Shown: in pieces, positions 37,782 through 48,809 of the stretch
Numbering within the stretch: position 1 is the stretch's first letter
How the letters are laid out: every line of letters starts with the position of its first letter
Program-made: the position numbers and the translations under genes
Assembly (NCBI RefSeq): GCF_000949635.1
Contig: NZ_BAFN01000001.1
Location: forward strand, 3,779,052 to 3,843,051
Direction: 5' to 3'
Source of the DNA: Candidatus Brocadia sinica JPN1
Lineage (GTDB): Bacteria; Planctomycetota; Brocadiia; Brocadiales; Brocadiaceae
DNA length: 64,000 nt
Notes under the pieces: model-generated
Told to the model about the DNA's origin: nothing
Seen by the model: the letters and a program-made list of their open reading frames with translations, nothing else
The model's database searches: none

Positions 37782-37875
37782 TATTTAAGTTGTATTTCTA
37801 AGGTTTTCTTTTTAACAGTACTCTTTTAGTTTTTCAGTCTTTTCGTAGAAAATTTTTCTGACAGTGCTTAATTTT

Positions 37876-38064
37876 ATGTCGTATCTATATTGTCCCTGAG
37901 TATAGAAACATATCAAAATTGGTAAAAATATACAAGAATCAAATTGTCTTGGATACTTCGAAATTATCGATAGAGTTTGGGAAGGCGAAAAAAAAGATAA
38001 AACACGCTAATACTTGGTTAAAAAAACCGAATTCAAAAACTTAATTTTATTGACATCATAAAAT
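37876..38064 (+). repeat. Degenerate copy of the right-end flank of the integrated element
   Basis: Aligning 37876-37955 with 48364-48442 without gaps gives about 70% identity by eye (both start ATGTCGTA and contain ACATATCAAAA). Both regions end about 160 bases later with the same 20-base block (TTTTATTGACATCATAAAAT; 38045-38064 and 48520-48539). The right copy supplies the -35 of tRNA-Glu. The left copy lies outside the integrase end, suggesting an older integration or a duplicated target. Confidence 0.6.
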
Positions 38065-38120: not shown

Positions 38121-38141
38121 TGTCGTACCTTCTCTGAACCT
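38121..38141 (+). other. Candidate attL core
   Basis: The 21-base block TGTCGTAC-C-TTCTCTGAACCT ends at the integrase stop codon and matches 48365-48385 except for one C/T difference. A short direct repeat touching the integrase 3' end and repeated at the other end of the phage-like gene block is the expected signature of att sites. Confidence 0.6.
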
Positions 38142-39304
38142 TACGCTTGCGCCGCCAAAGGTAAAACGGCCTTTTCACCCATGCCTAAAACATGGTCTGT
38201 TAGTGCCTGTACCGCTCTTTTCTTGCTATCAAGACCGGTATGTGAATATCGTTGCAACATACCCAAACTTGAATGCCCTGTCATACCTTGCACCACAACG
38301 GCGCCAACTCCAAGTTCACTTTGTAGTAAACTGCTAAAGGTATGTCTCAGGCCGTGAAACGTAAAATCACGGATGCCAATTGACTGAAACAGCAAACTAA
38401 ATCTGTGGCTATGTGCATTTGCAATACGCTTTGTGACCTCCCTGGTCTCAAATAGCCAGTCTTCCTGGCATCTTTCTTTGTACCGTAGCAACTCGCCAAT
38501 CAAATAAGCTGAAATCGGTATTGTTAATGCCTTTCCTGTCTTGCTCTGAACAAACGCTATTAGTCCTTTGGTAAAGTCAATATCCGTCCATTTTAAGCGT
38601 AATACCTCGTTTATCCTCATGCCTGTAAAGAGTCCCACCAGCACCATGAGACGATCTTTGCCTTGCAGTTTATCAAGCAATAAGCCTATTCCCTCGGAAG
38701 ATAACACCCGCTCATGTTTTTTTGGTATTTTCAACTTCTTAACCTCGCTGCATGGGTTCCTATCGATAACACCCGCTTTTATGGCCGTGTTAAACAGATG
38801 GGAAAATACAGTAATATTATCGTTTATACTGCCATCCGATACTTTATCTTTTTCCCTTCTATCAACCCGGAATTTCTCAATGATAAATGGAGTAATCTTA
38901 TCAAGCCGATAATCGCCCAGATGTTTTACCAAAATATTTATGTTTGCTCTTTTTGTATCCTGTGTACTTTCTTTAGCCCCTCTATATAATTCAAGGTATG
39001 TCTTGGAGTATTCCCCCAGAGTAGGAATGACTTTCTTCTTTGGCAGATTCAGCTTGCCCCGCTCACGGTCACCAATAAACATAGCCAGCCTTCTTTCTGC
39101 ATCCGCCCTGCTTCGTATATCTTTAAAGGTAAGGCTTTGCCATTTCTTTGTATCGTCAAAAAATTCAATTGCCCAATGACCGCAAACCCGGTATTGACCA
39201 TTGAGTTTATTAAGCGGCCTATCCCCAGGACAATGCTTTCCCTGTCTACCGTTACAAGGAATAGGCTTGCATTGTGGGAAATATTTACGAAATCGAACAG
39301 CCAT
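38141..39304 (-). CDS. int: Tyrosine-type site-specific integrase
   Basis: A 387-residue integrase. N-terminal Cys-rich stretch (residues 10-35), an arm/SAM-like core-binding domain (YLELYRGAKESTQDTKRANINIL), then the catalytic domain with the first Arg in TGMRINEVLRLKWTDID, HGLRHTFSS (HxxR) and the nucleophile Tyr in GHSSLGMLQRYSH. It ends at the candidate attL, the usual position. The ATG at 39303 is preceded by AAAGGACGG and by a hairpin with T-run at 39330-39375, so expression may be attenuated. Confidence 0.93.
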   Translation of the reverse strand: MAVRFRKYFPQCKPIPCNGRQGKHCPGDRPLNKLNGQYRVCGHWAIEFFDDTKKWQSLTFKDIRSRADAERRLAMFIGDRERGKLNLPKKKVIPTLGEYSKTYLELYRGAKESTQDTKRANINILVKHLGDYRLDKITPFIIEKFRVDRREKDKVSDGSINDNITVFSHLFNTAIKAGVIDRNPCSEVKKLKIPKKHERVLSSEGIGLLLDKLQGKDRLMVLVGLFTGMRINEVLRLKWTDIDFTKGLIAFVQSKTGKALTIPISAYLIGELLRYKERCQEDWLFETREVTKRIANAHSHRFSLLFQSIGIRDFTFHGLRHTFSSLLQSELGVGAVVVQGMTGHSSLGMLQRYSHTGLDSKKRAVQALTDHVLGMGEKAVLPLAAQA

Positions 39305-39329
39305 GTTTCACCGTCCTTTCAAATAAAAA

Positions 39330-39375
39330 AGGCAGTAGACCAAGTATGGGACAGCATACCCGGCCACTGCCTTTG
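39330..39375 (-). terminator. Hairpin terminator/attenuator in the integrase leader
   Basis: Read on the minus strand, AAAGGCAGT pairs with ACTGCCTTT across an inner GTATG/CATAC hairpin and is followed by a T-run, all about 25 bases before the integrase ATG. Either it ends the upstream transcript or it attenuates int. Confidence 0.65.
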
Positions 39376-39531
39376 ATTGCCTGATCTCTCAGGCATATAC
39401 CTATAAGCGTCTGTCCACGCTGGTATAATTTGAGTACGTACTAACGTATCTTTAAATTACTGTCAAGTCTTTTTATCTATTCCTTTTTCTTTTGACCTGT
39501 TTTAGTAAAATTGGTATTATCTAGTAAGAAT

Positions 39532-39735
39532 ATGACAGAGAAACAAAGGTCTAACCTTGCTAAATTCTTTTATGATATCGCAAAGATTGACTTTGCCGCT
39601 CTGGTAGTAGCTCAATTTACGAATCCTTTGAACATAAGACTTTGGACATTATTTTTAGGTATAATTTCAACCGCTATTCCACTTTTAATAGCATATAGCC
39701 TGGATAGAAAGGAAAAAGACAATGACAGGTCTTGA
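39532..39735 (+). CDS. Small membrane protein (DUF6722-like)
   Basis: A 67-residue protein from the ATG at 39532 (MTEKQRSNLAKFFYDIAKID) with two hydrophobic stretches (FAALVVAQF and LWTLFLGIISTAIPLLIAYSL) and a charged C-terminus. The MTEKQRxNLAKFFYDIAK start resembles DUF6722 proteins found in phage-like contexts. It is one of only two plus-strand genes in the element. Confidence 0.55.
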   Translation: MTEKQRSNLAKFFYDIAKIDFAALVVAQFTNPLNIRLWTLFLGIISTAIPLLIAYSLDRKEKDNDRS

Positions 39736-39823
39736 AATTGTATATCTTATAGTAATAGCATCGTGTCTGATTTTTTATGCCTGGTTTAAATACACTGAGA
39801 AGCATTCTAAGCATACGCATTAG
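39722..39823 (+). CDS. Very small transmembrane protein
   Basis: 33 codons (MTGLEIVYLIVIASCLIFYA followed by WFKYTEKHSKHTH). AAAGGA sits 8 bases upstream and it overlaps the end of the preceding gene by 14 bases. One transmembrane helix and a His-rich basic tail. Confidence 0.45.
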   Translation: MTGLEIVYLIVIASCLIFYAWFKYTEKHSKHTH

Positions 39824-39915
39824 TGCCACTGTAACCCCGTCCAGATCATCCAGCATATTGCTCTGGTTACCTCAAAGCCCATTATCCAAAATAAAAAATC
39901 ATTGAAATAGTTCAT
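39820..39915 (-). CDS. Very small hydrophobic protein coupled to the methylase gene
   Basis: 31 codons (MNYFNDFLFWIMGFEVTRAI...). Its ATG overlaps the dam-like stop as ATGA, the same coupling seen at other genes of this element. Rich in Trp and Phe. Overlaps the convergent tiny gene by 4 bases. Evidence is the coupling only. Confidence 0.35.
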   Translation of the reverse strand: MNYFNDFLFWIMGFEVTRAICWMIWTGLQWH

Positions 39916-40769
39916 TGGTTAAACTCCCGTTCAAAATTCGTCCAAAGGCATTCCACAGTCTTTGGCTTTGATTCCCCTGTTGATTTATGGCTACCCTTGA
40001 AGCTTGAATACTCATGCCGATGCCAGCCCCGGTACAATTCATCGTATAGGCTGTTCTGGTAGTGCGTGATCATTACTTTACCCTTTATGCCGTGAAGTAG
40101 CCCTGCAAGGGTACGGTGGTCATCCTGGCCAAAGGAATCCTTGCCGTAATAGTGTTCTGAATTCAGATAGGGGGGATCGCAATAAAACAGGGTAGTTTCT
40201 GAATCATACCGCTTGATACATTCGGCATAAGGCAGGTTCTCGATAGTAACGTTCCGTAGCCTTCTGGCTATATCGTCAAAGGTATCAATAGCCGTCCTGA
40301 AGCTCTGTGCTGGATTCCTGCCAGTGGTAGAAGGCACAGCAAAGCCACCCCGCTTCTGGTCACCTGAAAAGCATGTCCTGTTAAGATAAAACCACTGTGC
40401 GGATGCTTCCACAGGATCGCCAGGGATGCTGCATTGTTTCCACTGAGTCCTTAACTCTTGCCATAGGTTTCGGGAATAAGGCATATAGTCTAAAAGGTTA
40501 GTCAACATTTGGCATTTCCCCGGTTCCTGGATAATCTTGAAGAAGTTTACCAGGTGATTATCTATATCGTTGATTACTTCTACCTGGGAAGGTGTCTTGC
40601 TAAAGAGTAAATGTCCAGCCCCGCAAAAGGGTTCACAATAAAGTGTATGCTCCGGTATCTTTTCGGACAGCCAGCCAGCTAAAAGACCTTTACCGCCGAT
40701 CCTGGCTAGTGGTGAACGTAAGTTTTTTGTTGCTGATATTGTCATAGTTTTTTTCGATATGTTATACAC
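39912..40769 (-). CDS. D12-class N6-adenine DNA methyltransferase (Dam-like)
   Basis: A 285-residue MTase. SPLARIGGKGLLAGWL and YCEPFCGAGHLLF form the SAM-binding motif, DNHLVNFFKIIQ is a typical follow-up, and TLFYCDPPYL carries the catalytic DPPY. It methylates adenine N6, probably in a short site such as GATC. Start overlaps the stop of the Spo11-like gene by 8 bases, so the two are coupled. No cognate restriction enzyme is visible; protection from host or helper nucleases, or control of replication, are possible roles. Confidence 0.9.
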   Translation of the reverse strand: MYNISKKTMTISATKNLRSPLARIGGKGLLAGWLSEKIPEHTLYCEPFCGAGHLLFSKTPSQVEVINDIDNHLVNFFKIIQEPGKCQMLTNLLDYMPYSRNLWQELRTQWKQCSIPGDPVEASAQWFYLNRTCFSGDQKRGGFAVPSTTGRNPAQSFRTAIDTFDDIARRLRNVTIENLPYAECIKRYDSETTLFYCDPPYLNSEHYYGKDSFGQDDHRTLAGLLHGIKGKVMITHYQNSLYDELYRGWHRHEYSSFKGSHKSTGESKPKTVECLWTNFEREFNQ

Positions 40770-41664
40770 TATTTCCTACAAACTCAGATACTCTGTTTTT
40801 AAGATTGTTTAACAAGTCTAACTCGCCTTTATATTTTTCCACTTCACTGTTAAAAGCTTCAATATCAAGCTCGCCTTCGATAGCATCTTTAATTTTTGAT
40901 TCAAGAATGTCTGGCCGTAATGCGTCCAGTTCAACGGCAACCTCTCCGAAGGCCAAAACGTGTTTCTTCGCCCTTGTGTCTGTATATTTCAGAGCGTCTG
41001 GATTATGTGGCAGTTTATATGTATGAATGTCCTCTTGAATCAACGCAACCCTTTTAAACTCAATTCCACTAACTCCAAGTTCATCGCTTAAGGTAGTTTT
41101 CATCGCATCCAGCATTTCAACGCCCGAAGGGTCGAAGTCGCCAAAATATAAAACTAACGGCTGTTTGTCTTGTTTAACCGACAAACGCTCTCTGAAATCG
41201 TTTTGAAAACTAATTGAAGAAAACCCTTTGCAAACTACCACCGGAACACAATACCACCTGGCAACACGGGTAAAAATAGAGCTTAATGCGTCCTTCTCAA
41301 TCCATAACTCAGGGTATTTCTCTTGCGATTGCAGAAGATTCCGCTTATACCTGCTTAAAAAACAATCAAGCTCCTGAGTTACAAACTGGTCTTTATCACT
41401 AAAGCCTGTATTATCGTGAAAAACCCTTGTTCTATCTTCCATATCATCCCAGGAAATATAGCCGTTAATCCTTGCCCATTTCAAGCATTGAGAAAGCATA
41501 GTGTATTCACTTACTTTGTTTTCAATATATCCTTTACTTACGAATTGATAGTAAATTTGTCGCAGAGTTAGAGGTTTATAATCTGCAAGCTCGTCAAGAA
41601 TCTGTATAGCCTTGTTTAACTTGTCAAACTGCTTCTCCGTCCACTTCCATTCACGCCTTGCCAT
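40762..41664 (-). CDS. Spo11/TopoVI-A-like (Topo mini-A type) TOPRIM protein
   Basis: A 300-residue protein with two parts. Residues 35-60 (KPLTLRQIYYQFVSKGYI) match the winged-helix 5Y-CAP motif of TopoVI-A/Spo11, where RxxYY holds the DNA-cleaving Tyr. Residues 118-180 are a TOPRIM fold: ELWIEKDALSSIF (catalytic Glu), VVVCKGFSS and LVLYFGDFDPSGVEM (DxDxxG). No B (GHKL ATPase) subunit gene is near, as in the A-only 'mini-A' relatives found in mobile elements. It may nick or break DNA for replication or recombination. GGAGGG ribosome-binding site; overlaps the methylase gene. Confidence 0.78.
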   Translation of the reverse strand: MARREWKWTEKQFDKLNKAIQILDELADYKPLTLRQIYYQFVSKGYIENKVSEYTMLSQCLKWARINGYISWDDMEDRTRVFHDNTGFSDKDQFVTQELDCFLSRYKRNLLQSQEKYPELWIEKDALSSIFTRVARWYCVPVVVCKGFSSISFQNDFRERLSVKQDKQPLVLYFGDFDPSGVEMLDAMKTTLSDELGVSGIEFKRVALIQEDIHTYKLPHNPDALKYTDTRAKKHVLAFGEVAVELDALRPDILESKIKDAIEGELDIEAFNSEVEKYKGELDLLNNLKNRVSEFVGNSV

Positions 41665-41727
41665 ATTTTTATCTTCCCTCCTGAATATTACTAATAGGGG
41701 ATTTTATCGCTGTTATTGCTGTCATTG

Positions 41728-42081
41728 CTAAACTAAAGCCTCCGAATCGTTTTTAGATGCCAAAACCATATCGTGAGTTCTTTGTTTTCTGTAAAATTCC
41801 AGCCCTTTAAGACTAGGTTTTTGGTTTCCTATACCTTTTCGCTTAAGATTCGTTCCCATACGGTAAGAATGCAAATAATAAAGCCTGTCTTCAAAGAGTA
41901 ATTTCCCTGTACACTCTTTAACCTCTTGTCGTGTTTCCACACAATCAAGGCAATGTGCTTTAATACGTTTTGGAGGGGATAAGGACACGTCTTTTAACTT
42001 GCAAACTTTGCTTATGCAATCTACCGTTTTACAATTACTGCACCATCTACACTCCAACCTTATTGATCTCGCTGGTGTCAT
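41728..42081 (-). CDS. Cys-rich zinc-binding phage-type protein
   Basis: A 117-residue protein whose N-terminal two thirds hold about 9 cysteines (CRWCSNC, DCISKVCKL, HCLDCVE, ECTGK), suggesting two zinc-ribbon knots. Its ATG overlaps the stop of the HTH gene as ATGA. The pattern CxxC-x(n)-CxxC followed by 'YxLHSYRMG' is met in other phage and satellite proteins of unknown role. Confidence 0.65.
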   Translation of the reverse strand: MTPARSIRLECRWCSNCKTVDCISKVCKLKDVSLSPPKRIKAHCLDCVETRQEVKECTGKLLFEDRLYYLHSYRMGTNLKRKGIGNQKPSLKGLEFYRKQRTHDMVLASKNDSEALV

Positions 42082-42290
42082 GATTGTGCCTCCTGTCGGT
42101 TCTGGTTGATAAACGCTTCCAGGTCGGACAGTTTAAACCTGTTCAATCGCCCGATCTTTACCACCGGAATTGCCCTCCTCATAGTCATATCGTAAAGCGT
42201 GCTTTTTTGAATTCCTAAAAGCTTAGATGCTTCGTCCATACCCAACAACCGAAGTTCATTTCCCGTGTCCACAATTTTTAATTCTGACAT
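42078..42290 (-). CDS. Excisionase/AlpA-type helix-turn-helix protein
   Basis: A 70-residue MerR-like HTH_17 protein: LLGMDEASKLLGIQKSTLYDMTMRRAIPVVKIGRLNRFKLSDLEAFI. This is the standard fold of excisionases and AlpA regulators, which bend DNA at att sites or switch on satellite genes. GAATG start after GGAGGGCAAAG. Located mid-element and coupled to the Cys-rich gene. Confidence 0.88.
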   Translation of the reverse strand: MSELKIVDTGNELRLLGMDEASKLLGIQKSTLYDMTMRRAIPVVKIGRLNRFKLSDLEAFINQNRQEAQS

Positions 42291-42337
42291 TCTTTGCCCT
42301 CCATTGATTCGCTAAAAAGGATTTTTTCTTTATCCGC

Positions 42338-42532
42338 TTAGACTCCCGCCGTTACCACTAGGACGTTATCACCGTCCGAATAATGTTTTTCAAAGCAATC
42401 CTGGCACAGACAAACACATTGATCTTCCGGGATGCAGTAAAGTTTATTTGACGGTTTCAGCTCCTCGCATAGGTAACACACGAAATGGTTTTTGAAAAAC
42501 ACGATTTTACTTAAGTCTTTATCTTGCTTCAT
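42338..42532 (-). CDS. Small zinc-finger-like protein
   Basis: 64 residues with CYLCEE and CLCQDCFEKHY, i.e. two CxxC pairs that could bind one zinc. Its ATG overlaps the small terminase stop as ATGA. No named family. Confidence 0.6.
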   Translation of the reverse strand: MKQDKDLSKIVFFKNHFVCYLCEELKPSNKLYCIPEDQCVCLCQDCFEKHYSDGDNVLVVTAGV

Positions 42533-43011
42533 TTAGCACCCCCTGGTTTTTGGTTCCTCAATTTAACCCCCTGTAGAAAAAAGTCTAATTCGTCTGGTTC
42601 GTTCTTCTTTATCTCAATTCCCATCCTAGCTCGACTCTCAACGGATAGCCCCAATTGTTTTCCAGCTTCAATTAAGGTCTTTTGGAGTTCCCGTAAAGCG
42701 TTTACAGTCGGATTGATTTTAGGTAACCCTGAATCACTCATAAGCGTATATCCCTCAGCCCGCAACTTCTCACTGCACTTAATTAAGTGGGAATAACAGT
42801 CGCAGAATGCCGATAATAGCTCTACATCAAAGGACAGGTTTGCATCGGCCATAACCGCCGTAACACGCTCCCAGGTCTTTTTGCCGATATCATCCAACCA
42901 TGAAGGTGGTTCAGGCTTTGCCGTTACTTCGGGTAAATCAACGACCTCTTTTGCCCTGTCTTGACGATACGTCCCTTGCATCGCCTTCAATTTATCCGGT
43001 TTCCTACGCAT
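42529..43011 (-). CDS. terS: Phage terminase small subunit (P27 family)
   Basis: Start at ATG 43011 after TAGGAGG; a longer frame to 43059 lacks a site. The 160-residue protein has MRRKPDKLKAMQGTYRQDR, PEPPSWLDDIGKKTWERV, and SGLPKINPTVNALRELQKTLIEAGKQLGLS, the organisation of P27-type small terminases (N-terminal HTH-like, 'W' helix, 'NPxxxxLRxxxxxxxxxxxxLGLSP' tail). TerS recognises pac/cos DNA. With no large subunit here, it would have to act with a helper phage's TerL. Confidence 0.85.
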   Translation of the reverse strand: MRRKPDKLKAMQGTYRQDRAKEVVDLPEVTAKPEPPSWLDDIGKKTWERVTAVMADANLSFDVELLSAFCDCYSHLIKCSEKLRAEGYTLMSDSGLPKINPTVNALRELQKTLIEAGKQLGLSVESRARMGIEIKKNEPDELDFFLQGVKLRNQKPGGAK

Positions 43012-43114
43012 AAATCCTCCTACTAGAAAAAAGTTTGAAAACATTGGCAACGAATGCACACGACTGCAACACGCTACACAAGTCTAACCCTGTGGGGATT
43101 TTAGGGGGGTTAGG

Positions 43115-43207
43115 GGGGTGTCAACATGATGTCCCCTTTTGTCACAAAAAGATATGGTCTGCCAGAAATCTGACAAACCAGGGGTGTCAACATGATGTCC
43201 CCTTTTG
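43115..43207 (+). repeat. Two 27-bp direct repeats in a G-rich region before terS
   Basis: GGGGTGTCAACATGATGTCC followed by CCTTTTG occurs at 43115-43141 and 43181-43207, 66 bases apart, with no mismatch. Just upstream (43094-43119) are G4, G6 and G6 runs. Possible roles: regulatory site, packaging (pac/cos) site, or iterons. Confidence 0.75.
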
Positions 43208-43232
43208 CCCCACAAAGACTTAGAGCAATTTT

Positions 43233-43454
43233 TCACTGAGTTTTAACTACTCCCTTTTGGAGTATCTTTATCATAGCTTCGATAAATTTGGGCGAAAAGG
43301 TAACGCCTTTTTTCGTTGGCAAATAATTCCCATCGTCGCCCTGGAAGAATGTCCGAATATCGACATATTTACGCCCTTTGTATTCTTTTGCACTGATAAC
43401 AATTTTGTCCGTTTCGCTTTTGACGATCTCACCAAGCATTACGCCTTCCACCAC
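43233..43454 (-). CDS. PC4/YdbC-like ssDNA-binding protein
   Basis: A 73-residue protein starting at GTG 43454 (GGAGG six bases upstream). GEIVKSETDKIVISAKEYKGRKYVDIRTFF, then a GxxxPTKKGVTFSPKFI helix, is the transcriptional coactivator p15 (PC4) fold, which binds single-stranded DNA. In this context a role in replication or late transcription is likely. Confidence 0.82.
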   Translation of the reverse strand: MVEGVMLGEIVKSETDKIVISAKEYKGRKYVDIRTFFQGDDGNYLPTKKGVTFSPKFIEAMIKILQKGVVKTQ

Positions 43455-43474
43455 ATTTACCCTCCAAAAAGTTT

Positions 43475-43948
43475 TTAAGAGTTAACCAAGTAAGGTTTTA
43501 TTCGTTCCAAATACTCATGCTGTTTTCTCAAAAAATGGTATAGAAGTCCTTCGACCATATCCGCTACTAGTCCCGAATTGTCTGCAAAAAAAACGTGTAT
43601 CCCATATTTCGAACTCAATGCCTGCAAGCTTCCGACAACCGATGCCGCTGTGATTGCACTTCTCCACCCGCCTTTGTAAATATTCGTAAGTGATGATTCA
43701 ATAACCAAAGCTGAATACTCATATGCCCGCATACGTTGGATTTCATTCATGAATCTTTCACGGCCAACCCCCAACGATCCTAGCAAGTCTGATAAACTTT
43801 TACGCTCAATCGTCACCTTATCCGTAAAATGTTTCAAACTGTAATCCCCGGTTGAGAGTCCCATAACCTCCACTGTTGCGTTTTTAAACACCAAAGGGTT
43901 TTGTTCTCGTGTATCTTGGATAATGACCAAATCTGATTTTTTTATCAT
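43475..43948 (-). CDS. ERCC4-domain nuclease
   Basis: A 157-residue protein with the XPF/Mus81-type nuclease core: VIIQDTREQNPLVF, GLSTGDYSL, VTIERKSLSDLLGSL (ERKxxxD) and RERFMNEIQRMRAYEYSALVIE. Such phage nucleases cut branched or flap DNA. It follows the 129-residue gene by 29 bases and precedes the PC4 gene by 20, so these form one early operon with the primase. Confidence 0.88.
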   Translation of the reverse strand: MIKKSDLVIIQDTREQNPLVFKNATVEVMGLSTGDYSLKHFTDKVTIERKSLSDLLGSLGVGRERFMNEIQRMRAYEYSALVIESSLTNIYKGGWRSAITAASVVGSLQALSSKYGIHVFFADNSGLVADMVEGLLYHFLRKQHEYLERIKPYLVNS

Positions 43949-43977
43949 TTAGAGAAAATCAAAGTGCAAAAATGCTT

Positions 43978-44367
43978 TCAATTGCAATAGATAGATTTAT
44001 ATTTTTCAATCAGATCACACCTGCCAAGTTCTTTTAAGGTGGTGCATACGGATTGACCGCCCGGCTTCCAATAATGATATTTAGGATCACTATTGAAGGG
44101 GATGACCAGCACACCTGAGTAGGTAACATACGGTTTAGTCTGGTCTGGTTCACAATTCTCACCCATAATCGCCATTCGTTCGGATAGTTCATAACCTGTG
44201 ATTTGTGGTTCTTGTTGCTGTTTAGGTTCACCTATCGGTTTAATCTTGCCCTGCTGAGTTAACTTTGCCGCTTCTTTTTCTGCCTCTGACCTACACATAC
44301 CGCCATCAAATTGCATAATAGTCGCCCTTTCTTCATGAAAATCACGTTCAATTTCTGAAAAGCCCAC
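43978..44367 (-). CDS. Phage-type protein of unknown function
   Basis: 129 residues. The N-terminus has HEERATIMQFDGGMCRSEAEKEAAKL, a pattern (E-ERxxIMxFDGG-xRxxAE) repeatedly found in phage replication-module proteins; the C-terminus has KYHYWKPGGQSVCTTLKELG. Sits directly upstream of the ERCC4 nuclease gene. Confidence 0.6.
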   Translation of the reverse strand: MGFSEIERDFHEERATIMQFDGGMCRSEAEKEAAKLTQQGKIKPIGEPKQQQEPQITGYELSERMAIMGENCEPDQTKPYVTYSGVLVIPFNSDPKYHYWKPGGQSVCTTLKELGRCDLIEKYKSIYCN

Positions 44368-44386
44368 CTAGAAATGTTTCTAAACT

Positions 44387-44580
44387 CGTTTTGTTTTGTG
44401 TTCCATTCTTTTTCGTTTTGTTTTTATTTGCTATCATTTGTATTGATTTCTTTAATATTTTGCACCTGAGATTCCGTACCTTTGAGTACCCTTGTACCCT
44501 ATTTTCCCTAAAATCCCCTATGCGAAGCGTACTATAGAAAAGTTATAGGAAATTGGTCGTTATGGGTACTTATGGGTACT
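44387..44580. other. Candidate replication origin of the element
   Basis: Directly 3' of the primase gene. A ~70-base T-rich tract (44387-44460) is followed by five GTACC/GGTAC cores: CGTACC at 44475, AGTACCC at 44485, TGTACCC at 44493, and two ATGGGTACTT units at 44561 and 44571. AT-rich DNA plus iterons beside the Rep/primase gene is the layout of satellite origins such as those of SaPIs. Confidence 0.45.
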
Positions 44581-46789
44581 ACTTTTCAATTTTGAGGCCG
44601 ATGCCCTTCCAACAATTTCCACCAGACTTTACTCGTTCCAAGCCTCGCTCTGTCAAACGTAACCCAAAACTGCGTTGACTTAATATGTATTCGCCGCCCG
44701 CTTCACACCAATTTTTATATGCTCCGTACAAGTCGCTTGCTTTTGATTTAACTTCAGGCGTCAAAATACAGCATTCAGCCAAGAAAGCTCCAATGACGTC
44801 CATTTCTTCACGGTAATGGTTTGTTGCGTTCTGGACTTCTTCAGGCGTCTGCAATCCGCCTCTTCGCCACTCAAGGGAACCCTGAACTGCCCAAGCCAAA
44901 ATGCCGGGAAATTCCTTTGTGAACATTTCCATGACTTTGGATTTCAGAATTCGTTTTTCCTTTGGGATTTTGACGTTGAAAGGAATTAGTTTGATACGCC
45001 TCCAAATAGCATGATCCGTTCCTTTAATATTTGGTTTATGGTTACAGGCCAGCCAAAGCTTAAATTCTGGTTTGAAGTCAAAAAATTCACCGTACAAGAA
45101 CCGTGCTGTTATCGTATCACCACCAGTTAGTTGCTTGACCAGCACCTCAGCAAGCCGCCGTTCACCTTCAGTCTCGACAGCCGATATAAAACGACGCCCT
45201 TGCATCCTCGCAATGTCATTTCTAGTACCGCCGTCATTCTTCTTGGTTAGGAACGTCTCGAAATCCGCTGCTTGTGCATAGTCGCCAAGCAGTGTTGAAA
45301 TAGCATCAATAAACGAACTTTTCCCATTTTCGCCAAGCCCATATGGTAGGAAAAGGCACTGTTCTGAAGTGTCCCCCGTTAGTGAATAACCTACCGCCCG
45401 TTGAATAAACCGAATAAGGTCGTAGTTCCAATTGAATATCATTTCCAGGAATTCAAGCCACTGTGGACATTGTGCCGCCGGATCGTATTCAACCCGGATG
45501 ATCTTGGTTATGAAGTCTTTAGGATCATGCGGTTTTAAATCCCCCGTTCTCAAATCAATCGTTCCGTTCAGGCAATTTAAAAGATATGGATTTGTGTCAA
45601 GCTCGTCAGGCTGAATTGGGATTTCTTCCTCACTTTCGGCAAGTGAAACCATAGCCGTTATCTTATCTTTCCCCTGGCTTTTAGCTCCCCACTTTCCCAG
45701 CCTCTTGCTTATATCGGGGTCGCTAGCCAGGTAAGCCTCCTGATAAATATTATGCACGGTCTTTTTCGCTAATCTTAAAATTTGCCCATTGTTATCGATA
45801 CTCCACGTCTTACCATCCCACGTTAACCACTTTTTCCGGGCATAATAATAACGAATCACGTCGCCATGTTGCGAAACCAGCCGTTTTGCATTACCCAAAT
45901 CTGTGCAGTTAAAAACTTTTGGTTTATTTGTTTCTGGCTGATTCACCGATGCTGCTTCCCCTTTATCTGGCATCCATTCAGGAGCATTTTGAACGAGTTC
46001 AATCAGCTTTTCTTTGTTGTTGCCTGGTATTTTTGACCAGTCAAGCACGTCCTCAGCTTCAGAGAGTCCCGGCAATTCAACAACCCTCAATTCCCCGACC
46101 TTGCCGTGTAATACGCTGGCTATCTTTGAAGCATATTCCCGGCCTGGTTTGTCACTATCTGGAAGGATAACCACCTTTTCCAGCTTGGAGAGTATTTCAA
46201 TATGTTCATTCTTGATAGGTGAATTAGCTCCAGAATCAAGACAGGTAGCAACCAGCCCCCAAGAGTTTAGAAGGTCGGCTTTTGCTTCACCTTCGACAAT
46301 GAAGCAATATTTCGACTTTGTAATCTGTGGTAAGTTGTAAGGCGCAGGATCACAGCCCCTACCCATTGCCCACCTATCGCCCTCCAAGTGTTTGAAAACG
46401 AATTCCTTTCGCTTTCCATTACGCCCAGGTTCCAACCGTTCCTTAAGATAAAGAACATTGCTCGCTTCATCCATGTATTTGAAAGTGGCTACAACTTTTG
46501 GCTTAATATCCGATTCGACAATCCCAGCTATTTTCCCGATTTCTCTTAGTGCTGTCGGAAAATCAACATCCTTAAACCTTTGGTAGAATGTGAATATATC
46601 CCCTTTAGCGTCACAGGAAAAACACCTGAATAACCCTGATTCAACATTCACGGAGAGAGACGGATTTGTATCATCATGGAAGGGACACAGCCCCAGTGCT
46701 TCGGGTTTACCGTTGACCTCCAGGGAAGGGATTAGTTCCTGGTAAAATTTTGACTTGTCCAGCCGATTAAGAATTTCTGTCTTATTCAT
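44579..46789 (-). CDS. Primase/helicase (CHC2 zinc finger + Toprim + D5/SF3 helicase)
   Basis: A 736-residue replication protein. Residues 25-70 carry a CHC2 zinc finger (LCPFHDDTNPSLSV ... FRCFSCDAKGD), followed by a Toprim domain (YCFIVEGEAKADLL ... VVILPDSDKPGREYA), a D5_N region (NPYLLNCLNGTIDLRTGDLKPH) and an SF3 helicase with Walker A GLGENGKSSF, Walker B-type FKLWLACNHKPN and the arginine-finger region WRRIKLIPF. This P4 alpha-like architecture starts replication and unwinds the origin. ATG overlaps the upstream 44-codon gene by 8 bases. Confidence 0.92.
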   Translation of the reverse strand: MNKTEILNRLDKSKFYQELIPSLEVNGKPEALGLCPFHDDTNPSLSVNVESGLFRCFSCDAKGDIFTFYQRFKDVDFPTALREIGKIAGIVESDIKPKVVATFKYMDEASNVLYLKERLEPGRNGKRKEFVFKHLEGDRWAMGRGCDPAPYNLPQITKSKYCFIVEGEAKADLLNSWGLVATCLDSGANSPIKNEHIEILSKLEKVVILPDSDKPGREYASKIASVLHGKVGELRVVELPGLSEAEDVLDWSKIPGNNKEKLIELVQNAPEWMPDKGEAASVNQPETNKPKVFNCTDLGNAKRLVSQHGDVIRYYYARKKWLTWDGKTWSIDNNGQILRLAKKTVHNIYQEAYLASDPDISKRLGKWGAKSQGKDKITAMVSLAESEEEIPIQPDELDTNPYLLNCLNGTIDLRTGDLKPHDPKDFITKIIRVEYDPAAQCPQWLEFLEMIFNWNYDLIRFIQRAVGYSLTGDTSEQCLFLPYGLGENGKSSFIDAISTLLGDYAQAADFETFLTKKNDGGTRNDIARMQGRRFISAVETEGERRLAEVLVKQLTGGDTITARFLYGEFFDFKPEFKLWLACNHKPNIKGTDHAIWRRIKLIPFNVKIPKEKRILKSKVMEMFTKEFPGILAWAVQGSLEWRRGGLQTPEEVQNATNHYREEMDVIGAFLAECCILTPEVKSKASDLYGAYKNWCEAGGEYILSQRSFGLRLTERGLERVKSGGNCWKGIGLKIEK

Positions 46790-46916
46790 TTAGCGCCTTA
46801 ATAATGAAAGTACAAGCATTAACGATCCGTGATCGATTTTTCGTGAAAGGCTTCCCAGCGATCTCGTTTTTGTAACCTGCCAGTAATTTACGCAAGAGTT
46901 TTTGGCTTTTCTTCAT
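46782..46916 (-). CDS. Small basic protein upstream of the primase
   Basis: 44 residues (MKKSQKLLRKLLAGYKNEIA...), with a good AAAGGA site 5 bases before the ATG at 46916. The stop overlaps the primase ATG, so it is a coupled leader gene or a small basic regulator. No recognised family. Confidence 0.5.
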   Translation of the reverse strand: MKKSQKLLRKLLAGYKNEIAGKPFTKNRSRIVNACTFIIKALNE

Positions 46917-46917
46917 T

Positions 46918-47082
46918 TTATCCTTTCGTTGTGGTCGGACTCCCTGCTCTCGTTTTCAACACAAGGTCAATGCCTTGACGGACAATTTCGGAAATCGGTT
47001 TACCTTCTTTTATAGAGATATGTTTAAGTTCCCGGTATGTAGAGAACGCCAGTATTAGGTTAAATGTTTTCGTTGGTACCAT
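46918..47082 (-). CDS. Small ribbon-helix-helix-like DNA-binding protein
   Basis: Start ATG 47082 after TAGGAG; a longer frame exists. The 54-residue product has KTFNLILAFSTYRELKHISIKEGKPISEIVRQGIDLVL, a CopG/Arc-type strand then two helices (..SISEIVRxGIDLxL). Probably an autorepressor of the replication operon. It follows a strong minus-strand terminator at 47100-47137. Confidence 0.7.
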   Translation of the reverse strand: MVPTKTFNLILAFSTYRELKHISIKEGKPISEIVRQGIDLVLKTRAGSPTTTKG

Positions 47083-47099
47083 TTTTAGACTCCTATAAA

Positions 47100-47137
47100 A
47101 CAAAAAGCTCCGCGACAAACACTTGTCATCGCGGAGC
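47100..47137 (-). terminator. Intrinsic terminator upstream of the RHH gene
   Basis: Minus strand: AGCTCCGCGATGA ... TTGTCGCGGAGCT with 10-11 paired bases followed by TTTTTG. It separates the coiled-coil gene from the replication operon or attenuates it. Confidence 0.75.
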
Positions 47138-47225
47138 TAAATATACCCCCAACTGTATTATGATTGCAAAATGGGGAGTTTTTGGGGAGTAAAACTTTTC
47201 AGTATTTAAGCGGGTTTCAGGTCAA

Positions 47226-47915
47226 TCATGGGAAGTCTTTTGGGGAGTTTTTGGGGAGTTTGATATTTATGGAAGACGTGTATTTTTTATCGCCAAGACT
47301 CACGATTAAATCTTTTTGAAGTGCTTCCTTGCATAGCTTGTTAATTGCGTTTTTCTCTTTTTCAAATGGCTGTCTTTCCTTTTTGGATAAAGTTGTTTTA
47401 CTCATTGTATCGATACCATAGTGGTAAGTTAAAATGTACTGTAGTTCTAGGAATTTTTCGCTTCCTGTCTCTCTAATCATAAACCTCAAAAGGTCTGCGC
47501 GAGACGGTTGAAACCTTATTGTTTCCTCGCCTATGTGCAACGTATTTGCATTATCTAGCAAGTAGCTATTTCCTTGTGTGTCTTCCGTAGTGTTTGTTGT
47601 TGTTTCATTAAGGATAATCTTATTCAACTTGTCTTCTCTAGACCTTGCCAGAATTCCCAATTCTCTGTTGTATTCTTCCAGTTGGTCGCAAACGGTAGGA
47701 AAGTTTAGAAGTGGTGAGCTCAATTCCTTAAGCTTGCTTAATAGCTTTTCTTCGGTCGCAGAGAGAATAACGTCACTTACGGGTATCTCGTCATATTTGT
47801 CTAACGTTTGCTGTAAACTGTGGATTTCATACATAACTTCAAGAGATTTGATTTCCCCTTGAATTCCTTTAATTTCTTCGTCCAATAACCTTACTTCGTC
47901 ACTTGTATTTCCCAT
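47226..47915 (-). CDS. Coiled-coil protein of unknown function
   Basis: 229 residues with CAGGAGG ribosome-binding site. Residues 5-105 are mainly Glu/Lys/Leu helices (DEEIKGIQGEIKSLEVMYEI; LEEYNRELGILARSREDKL), the centre is Thr/Asn-rich, and the C-terminal third (PFEKEKNAINKLCKEALQKDLI) may be a winged-helix. No known family. Separated from the replication operon by a terminator. Confidence 0.55.
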   Translation of the reverse strand: MGNTSDEVRLLDEEIKGIQGEIKSLEVMYEIHSLQQTLDKYDEIPVSDVILSATEEKLLSKLKELSSPLLNFPTVCDQLEEYNRELGILARSREDKLNKIILNETTTNTTEDTQGNSYLLDNANTLHIGEETIRFQPSRADLLRFMIRETGSEKFLELQYILTYHYGIDTMSKTTLSKKERQPFEKEKNAINKLCKEALQKDLIVSLGDKKYTSSINIKLPKNSPKDFP

Positions 47916-48105
47916 CGGATACCTCCTGAAGTAATCCCCCCTGGAAAGTAGAATTAAGGGCAGGCCGTCCAGGACAACGGCTTTTCGCTGATCAGGCTAT
48001 CCCTTAGTTGTTAATTTAACCGCTAAAATCACGGTGTTTAATAAGCAAATTGCCACTTGGACACGCTTCATTGACCTTACCCACGTGGAAACCCTTCGGA
48101 ATCAT

Positions 48106-48121
48106 TTCTAGACGTCTAGAA
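48106..48121. promoter_or_regulatory. 16-bp perfect palindrome, operator candidate
   Basis: TTCTAGAC|GTCTAGAA is a perfect palindrome in the intergenic region before the coiled-coil gene. Its position fits a dimeric repressor site for one of the element's regulators. Confidence 0.45.
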
Positions 48122-48128
48122 TGCGTTT

Positions 48129-48326
48129 CTAATAGGCAATTCTACCGTGCTCTTTGGTCTTCCAATCCTTATCATAGATCGTGATATATCCGTTTTCAAT
48201 AACCACATGCTCTTTGATCTTGCCCTGGGTGTCATAAATATCAATCGTCTTGCGTTCCTGTCTAGACCCGGTGACGGTTCCACATCCGGCTATTAAAAGG
48301 CAAAGAATTATTGCGGTTCGCTTCAT
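48129..48326 (-). CDS. Small lipoprotein
   Basis: 65 residues with a lipoprotein signal (MKRTAIILCLLIAGC, Cys15) and a repeated YDTQGKIKEH / YDKDWKTKEHG motif. Last gene before attR. Cargo of the element, perhaps altering the cell surface; function not known. Confidence 0.65.
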   Translation of the reverse strand: MKRTAIILCLLIAGCGTVTGSRQERKTIDIYDTQGKIKEHVVIENGYITIYDKDWKTKEHGRIAY

Positions 48327-48364
48327 GGTGAACCCTCAGTTACATGATCATTACATGAAACTTA

Positions 48365-48385
48365 TGTCGTACTTTCTCTGAACCT
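48365..48385 (+). other. Candidate attR core
   Basis: TGTCGTAC-T-TTCTCTGAACCT, 20 of 21 bases identical with 38121-38141. It lies 223 bases upstream of tRNA-Glu, so integration would be in the tRNA's upstream region rather than inside the tRNA. Confidence 0.6.
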
Positions 48386-48524
48386 AATCATAAAAACATA
48401 TCAAAAATGGTCGAAAGAAACAAGAGATAAAATCGACTTGAAAACCCTGTAAATACTGGTAGAATCAAAGGAAATCAGAAAATATCAAAACACTTAGAAA
48501 TCTAGCAAAAAAGGTTAATTTTTA

Positions 48525-48553
48525 TTGACATCATAAAATAAATATAGTATTTT
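48525..48553 (+). promoter_or_regulatory. Probable promoter of tRNA-Glu
   Basis: TTGACA (48525-48530), 17-base spacer, TATTTT (48548-48553). The -35 hexamer lies in the block that is repeated at 38045-38064. Confidence 0.6.
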
Positions 48554-48608: not shown

Positions 48609-48681
48609 GCCCCCATCGTCTAGCGGCCCAGGATGCCAGGTTCTCAGCCTGGAGACAGGGGTTCAAATCCCCTTGGGGGTA
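48609..48681 (+). tRNA. tRNA-Glu (anticodon CTC)
   Basis: Folds as a cloverleaf: acceptor GCCCCCA with TGGGGGT, anticodon stem CCAGG/CCTGG around TTCTCAG (anticodon CTC), T-arm AGGGG-TTCAAAT-CCCCT. CCA is not encoded. Next to the right end of the integrated element. Confidence 0.93.
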
Positions 48682-48809
48682 CTTTAGCGGCAGCTGAAAA
48701 TGCAATGGAAATCTCCCTGCAATCATGCATAAAGTGTTTCACGCTTTTTATAACATTCAATTTGGAATCCCAAACCCAATGCCACTTTGCGAATCAAAGG
48801 AGACGATAG

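Follow-up and report, generated by a model that had tools for sequence, protein, structure and literature searches.

The window analyzed here, a 64,000-nucleotide stretch of DNA (G000:C1:3779052-3843051) within a 4.08-Mb host genome, carries an island that we interpret, with a probability of roughly 0.8, as an integrative phage satellite of 10.5 kb, measured between its 20-bp outer repeats. The island was compared across the host and 58 relatives (59 genomes, some of the relative genomes being fragmentary); G-codes denote genomes, with G000 the host, and L-codes denote the loci or islands compared. The host genome contains two copies of the hydrazine synthase alpha gene (G000:C1:674830 and 2801105, identical scores), indicating that the host is an anammox bacterium, probably of the order Brocadiales, and narrowing the "probably a planctomycete" of the initial annotation.

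The features of the island are collected in Table 1. The core genes all lie on the minus strand, as determined from the ORF list and from Pfam and PHROG profile searches. These searches bear out the integrase, excisionase-like HTH protein, primase/helicase and small terminase that had been proposed from the letters of the DNA, and family searches likewise recover the additional set of Dam, Spo11-like, ERCC4 and PC4-like genes. The integrase, Dam and ERCC4 genes are under purifying selection, with dN/dS values of 0.12-0.27 for Dam and about 0.07 for ERCC4 in the comparison with L027. The Spo11-like protein displays the motifs TLRQIYY, LWIEKD and YFGDFDPSG (read by eye; a putative subfamily), and a search by sequence found no solved structure for it; it resembles Topo Mini-A, as outlined where PMC8185306 cites Takahashi 2020, in being a Topo-VI-A/Spo11-like protein carried by a mobile element. 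Several small island proteins have no family match. The two 38-bp repeats upstream of terS may serve for packaging, as an origin or as an operator; folding of the DNA there gave no support for a strongly structured site (DNA fold z-score -1.04).

Table 1. Features of the island and its borders, in window coordinates.
Feature	Position	Strand	Evidence or remark
Diverged island right-end copy	37874..38044	+	aligns to island right ends
attL	38045..38064	+	TTTTATTGACATCATAAAAT; 20-bp exact direct repeat shared with 48520-48539
Left subterminal 21-bp repeat	38121..38141	+	counterparts in L022, L065, L067, L069, L165, L027, L170
Tyrosine integrase	38141..39304	-	PF00589 5.7e-26, phrog_1 3e-67
Dam-type adenine methyltransferase	39912..40769	-	PF02086 5.9e-31; family core gene
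Spo11/Topo VI-A-like protein (Topo Mini-A-like)	40762..41664	-	phrog_6247 3.7e-60
C5, Cys-rich protein	41728..42081	-	conserved in eight islands; no Pfam match
AlpA-like excisionase/activator (HTH_17)	42078..42290	-	PF12728 4e-12, phrog_66 2.8e-8
Small Cys-rich protein	42338..42532	-	ORF only
Terminase small subunit, P27/Terminase_4 type	42529..43059	-	PF05119 1.1e-16, phrog_83 4.5e-31
Two 38-bp direct repeats, 92% identical	43115..43218		directly upstream of terS
PC4-like ssDNA-binding protein	43233..43454	-	PF02229 3.4e-15
ERCC4-type nuclease	43475..43948	-	PF02732 9.4e-13
Family protein C3	43978..44367	-	present in ten islands (island comparison)
CHC2-Toprim-D5 (SF3) primase/helicase	44579..46789	-	D5_N 1e-38, CHC2 1.4e-16
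Ribbon-helix-helix regulator	46918..47118	-	RHH_3 0.0012, below cut-off; in nine islands
Coiled-coil-like protein	47226..47915	-	no family match
Small lipoprotein-like ORF, accessory	48129..48326	-	ORF
Right subterminal 21-bp repeat	48365..48385	+	counterparts in the same sister islands
attR	48520..48539	+	within tRNA-Glu promoter (-35 TTGACA at 48525, promoter scan)
tRNA-Glu (ctc)	48609..48682	+	intact host gene; its promoter is the insertion target

The ends of the island required a revision of the initial annotation, which had taken the 21-bp repeats as the insertion boundaries. These repeats are present and nearly identical (20/21 positions), but they are subterminal: the exact 20-bp repeat is found farther out, at a distance of 56 bp from the left motif and 134 bp from the right one. 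The offsets, the flank homology and the sister islands together rule out the 21-bp repeats as att sites; the left one is likely an integrase/excisionase arm site. The same layout of the ends is found in seven other islands (L022, L065, L067, L069, L165, L027 and L170), where exact direct repeats of 17-61 bp, evaluated against a null of shuffled flanks only, lie outside the same subterminal motif, 50-83 bp beyond it on the left and 78-135 bp beyond it on the right; the sequences of these outer repeats vary by site. In the longest of them (L022, L065), part of the repeat is probably the right end of an adjacent island in tandem, and the diverged right-end copy in Table 1 is, from its alignment, probably a scar that such a neighbour left beside the window island. 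A 128-bp sequence beside the right repeat was also considered as a dispersed host repeat; its position within the base-exact insert of L027 favors reading it instead as the right end of the islands, in which case its many solo copies would be island remnants.

The tRNA-Glu gene lies next to the island, as had been noted, but it is not itself the target: insertion into the tRNA is ruled out, since att lies in the promoter upstream (TTGACA at 48525 and TATTTT ending at 48553 in the promoter scan) and the tRNA is intact. Right-flank homology starts at window positions 48512-48517, at attR, in most other genomes of the genus, and the promoter site is uninterrupted in 10/10 of them. The pyk-side flank does not adjoin the tRNA-Glu side in those genomes, and thus what the comparison establishes for the window island itself is its right boundary and an empty promoter site only. 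A base-exact empty allele is provided by the L027 site in G009, where the two flanks are joined and share exactly the 19-bp repeat; this site is also empty in G003 and G006, and in G004 it holds a different island. The search for empty sites in relatives that had been proposed as a check was thus successful, and, judged from these sites, the island family is shown to be mobile. In addition, the DNA of C14 is identical in L025:11353-11910 and L027:10864-11421, two islands 0.9 Mb apart in the host genome, indicating recent exchange.

The host genome contains at least seven related islands or remnants, located near 78-98 kb, 418-438 kb, 2378 kb, 2595 kb, 2756 kb, 3580 kb (a remnant) and 3683 kb, and more occur in the relatives. 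The set of genes that recurs in this family comprises the ribbon-helix-helix regulator, primase/helicase, C3, ERCC4 or PC4, AlpA, C5, Dam and integrase, with TerS in several islands. Integrase, AlpA and primase follow the same order in many sister islands. The type of TerS varies: it is P27 in the window island and Nu1 in six others (L023, L024, L025, L027, L066 and L165), and a clear TerS is missing from several islands. The host also harbours a mobile element of a second type (G000:C1:3534900-3550400, from L094 14916 to L095 10381), with an integrase, a small HTH protein, a sigma-factor-like protein (phrog_351), two further tyrosine recombinases, an 878-aa primase, an AlpA-like protein and a tape-measure-like protein; partial parallels to it are L097 (G025) and L105 (G026).

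Searches of ORFs, Pfam and PHROG detected no large terminase, portal, capsid, tail or lysis gene in the window island, in agreement with the initial annotation. Large terminase or capsid genes in related copies had been named as evidence for a decayed prophage; no TerL, portal or capsid gene was recognized in more than 12 homologous islands, and the three TerL families searched (PF03354, PF05876 and PF03237) gave no match in the whole host genome. One sister island (L021:9429-11287) encodes two related proteins, one of them weakly similar to a DNA ejection protein (phrog_4287, 2.6e-10), so that virion-like genes are not entirely missing from the family. In a distant element (L079:4001-6058, G049:C179) a P27-type TerS adjoins a tape-measure-like protein; AlpA and integrase are present there and no TerL was seen. 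A P27-type TerS occurs in just one other of the 59 genomes, as a distant match. The resident prophage with a P27-type TerS/TerL pair that had been suggested as a helper was not found in the host or the 58 relatives, nor was a helper phage for this type of TerS found in the host, the relatives or IMG/VR; short-pattern scans of IMG/VR gave no viral relatives of the window TerS, Spo11-like protein or Dam.

The sister islands with Nu1-type TerS offer a more direct view of packaging. In G025, a relative within the same family, there is a lambda-like prophage (L096, G025:C25:36000-55999) with a full head module: a TerS that matches the Nu1 type of the islands, TerL, portal, protease, a scaffold-like protein, a decoration protein and the major capsid protein. 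The closest viral contig in IMG/VR, L190, has the same order of head genes. The C-terminal half of the Nu1-type TerS is 46% identical between island and phage, and its N-terminal, DNA-binding half 15%; among the islands, the corresponding values are 54% and 47%. Lambda Nu1 contacts DNA through its N-terminal half and TerL through its C-terminal half. The sister TerS therefore fits what is expected of a packaging hijacker. In all six sister islands with Nu1-type TerS, terS is adjoined by C9, a gene absent from the window island, whose product has a C-terminal motif resembling the tail of Nu3-type phage scaffolds. All matches of the C9 profile above threshold were Nu3-type scaffolds (4/4 among 1089 proteins, 1/1 among 959), and the scaffold of the G025 prophage has a match in a phage protein annotated with a Nu3 scaffolding domain. 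The tail of C9 is presumed to bind capsid; together, TerS and C9 show the pattern that a hijack of packaging and capsids would be expected to leave. Sister islands (L027:12165, L066:8145 and L165:7178) also have a conserved motif, approximately TTTTGTACGGGG...ACCGCAG, in the interval between C9 and terS; it is a candidate cos/pac site or operator, and was not found upstream of the prophage TerS.

We compared the island with known satellites. Like the Gram-negative PICIs EcCICFT073 and PmCI172 (PMC6092414), it has int, an AlpA-type activator, a primase/replication module, an optional terS and its own att, in a group from which few prophages are known; the likeness is one of gene content, read from family-level HMM matches. 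Two further PICI features are found: a conserved order of the integrase, replication module and master regulator across many sister islands, and a window island free of structural and lytic genes. However, PICIs measure about 12-15 kb (PMC6092414), which exceeds the 10.5 kb of the island, and the island differs from them in its CHC2-Toprim-D5 primase and its Dam, ERCC4, PC4 and Topo-VI-A-like genes; capsid-forming genes, as in cf-PICIs, were not found with Pfam or PHROG. With the PICMIs of Vibrionaceae it shares the int-alpA-primase core, the small size and an AlpA of the HTH_17 family, but PICMIs integrate at fis and have no terS or capsid-redirecting gene (PMC10803314), whereas the island lies at the tRNA-Glu promoter with a TerS, and some of its sisters have the scaffold-tail gene. 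Sister C9 recalls the SaPI capsid redirectors CpmB/Rcm in sharing mainly a C-terminal motif with a phage scaffold, the counterpart for CpmB being the scaffold of 80-alpha (PMC12409344); unlike CpmB, it is related to scaffolds of the lambda Nu3 type, and the window island does not carry it. P4-like satellites resemble the island in having an integrase, an AlpA/Vis-like regulator, an SF3 primase-helicase and no virion genes. The P4 markers sid, psu, delta and ash were absent from the Pfam and PHROG matches, where a distant version could hide among the small proteins of no family. To our knowledge P4 has no TerS, which distinguishes it from the island. The filing as a PICI or P4-type element is unsupported, the size being below the PICI norm and no P4 marker gene having been recognized, and we propose no membership among the PICMIs or cf-PICIs either. 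What does hold is the broader functional class of phage satellite, a mobile element without virion genes and with a gene, here terS, that would redirect packaging.

Other explanations must be weighed against this one. A self-replicating integrative element that never enters phage particles, with the TerS-like protein acting as a DNA-binding regulator only, would account for the lack of a known helper for the P27 TerS and for the islands without clear TerS. We consider it improbable: a mere regulator would not be expected from a sister TerS that keeps the C-terminal half of the phage protein, diverges in the DNA-binding half and adjoins a protein with a phage scaffold tail, and a Pfam search of the window island revealed no relaxase or conjugation gene. 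The phage-type genes, the ejection-like protein of L021 and the TerS with tape-measure-like protein of L079 would also be compatible with a decayed prophage in which int, a regulator, the replication genes and terS outlasted the structural genes. Decay is nevertheless very improbable, given that the gene set recurs with exact att repeats in at least seven host islands and in relatives, that the core genes are undamaged and evolve under purifying selection, and that the three TerL families are absent from the host genome. The methyltransferase, the accessory DNA enzymes and PADLOC methyltransferase matches might suggest a transposon-like or defence island that does not move by itself, a reading that is hardly credible beside an integrase, exactly repeated att sites and empty alleles; PADLOC recognized no complete defence system.

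We therefore return to the phage satellite as the preferred explanation. The proposal of a helper-dependent element rather than a prophage is well supported for the island family by the lack of TerL and capsid genes, the sister TerS and scaffold genes, and the empty sites; that the window island itself depends on a helper is inferred from its membership in this family. In the mechanism that we envisage, the integrase and the AlpA-type excisionase/activator would insert and remove the island at the 20-bp site in the tRNA-Glu promoter, and the primase/SF3 helicase and accessory DNA enzymes would replicate it. Induction by a helper would be followed by packaging in helper capsids: during infection, an island TerS may engage the TerL of the helper and steer packaging to satellite DNA, and the P27-type TerS of the window island may do likewise for a different helper.

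In the open-access literature searched, we found no description of satellites from anammox bacteria and almost nothing on their phages. On balance we favor the view that these islands form an undescribed anammox satellite family, which exchanges TerS modules (P27, Nu1 and perhaps further types) within one conserved framework of genes and so exploits unrelated helpers, employs TerS chimeras with a phage C-terminal half and a DNA-binding half of their own as well as a mimic of the Nu3 scaffold tail, and integrates at targets like the promoter of tRNA-Glu. If this is true, slow-growing and industrially important anammox bacteria carry many satellites per genome and must therefore meet helper phages often; the TerS chimeras and the scaffold-tail gene point to the kind of phage that is exploited, as represented by the G025 prophage and the IMG/VR contig.
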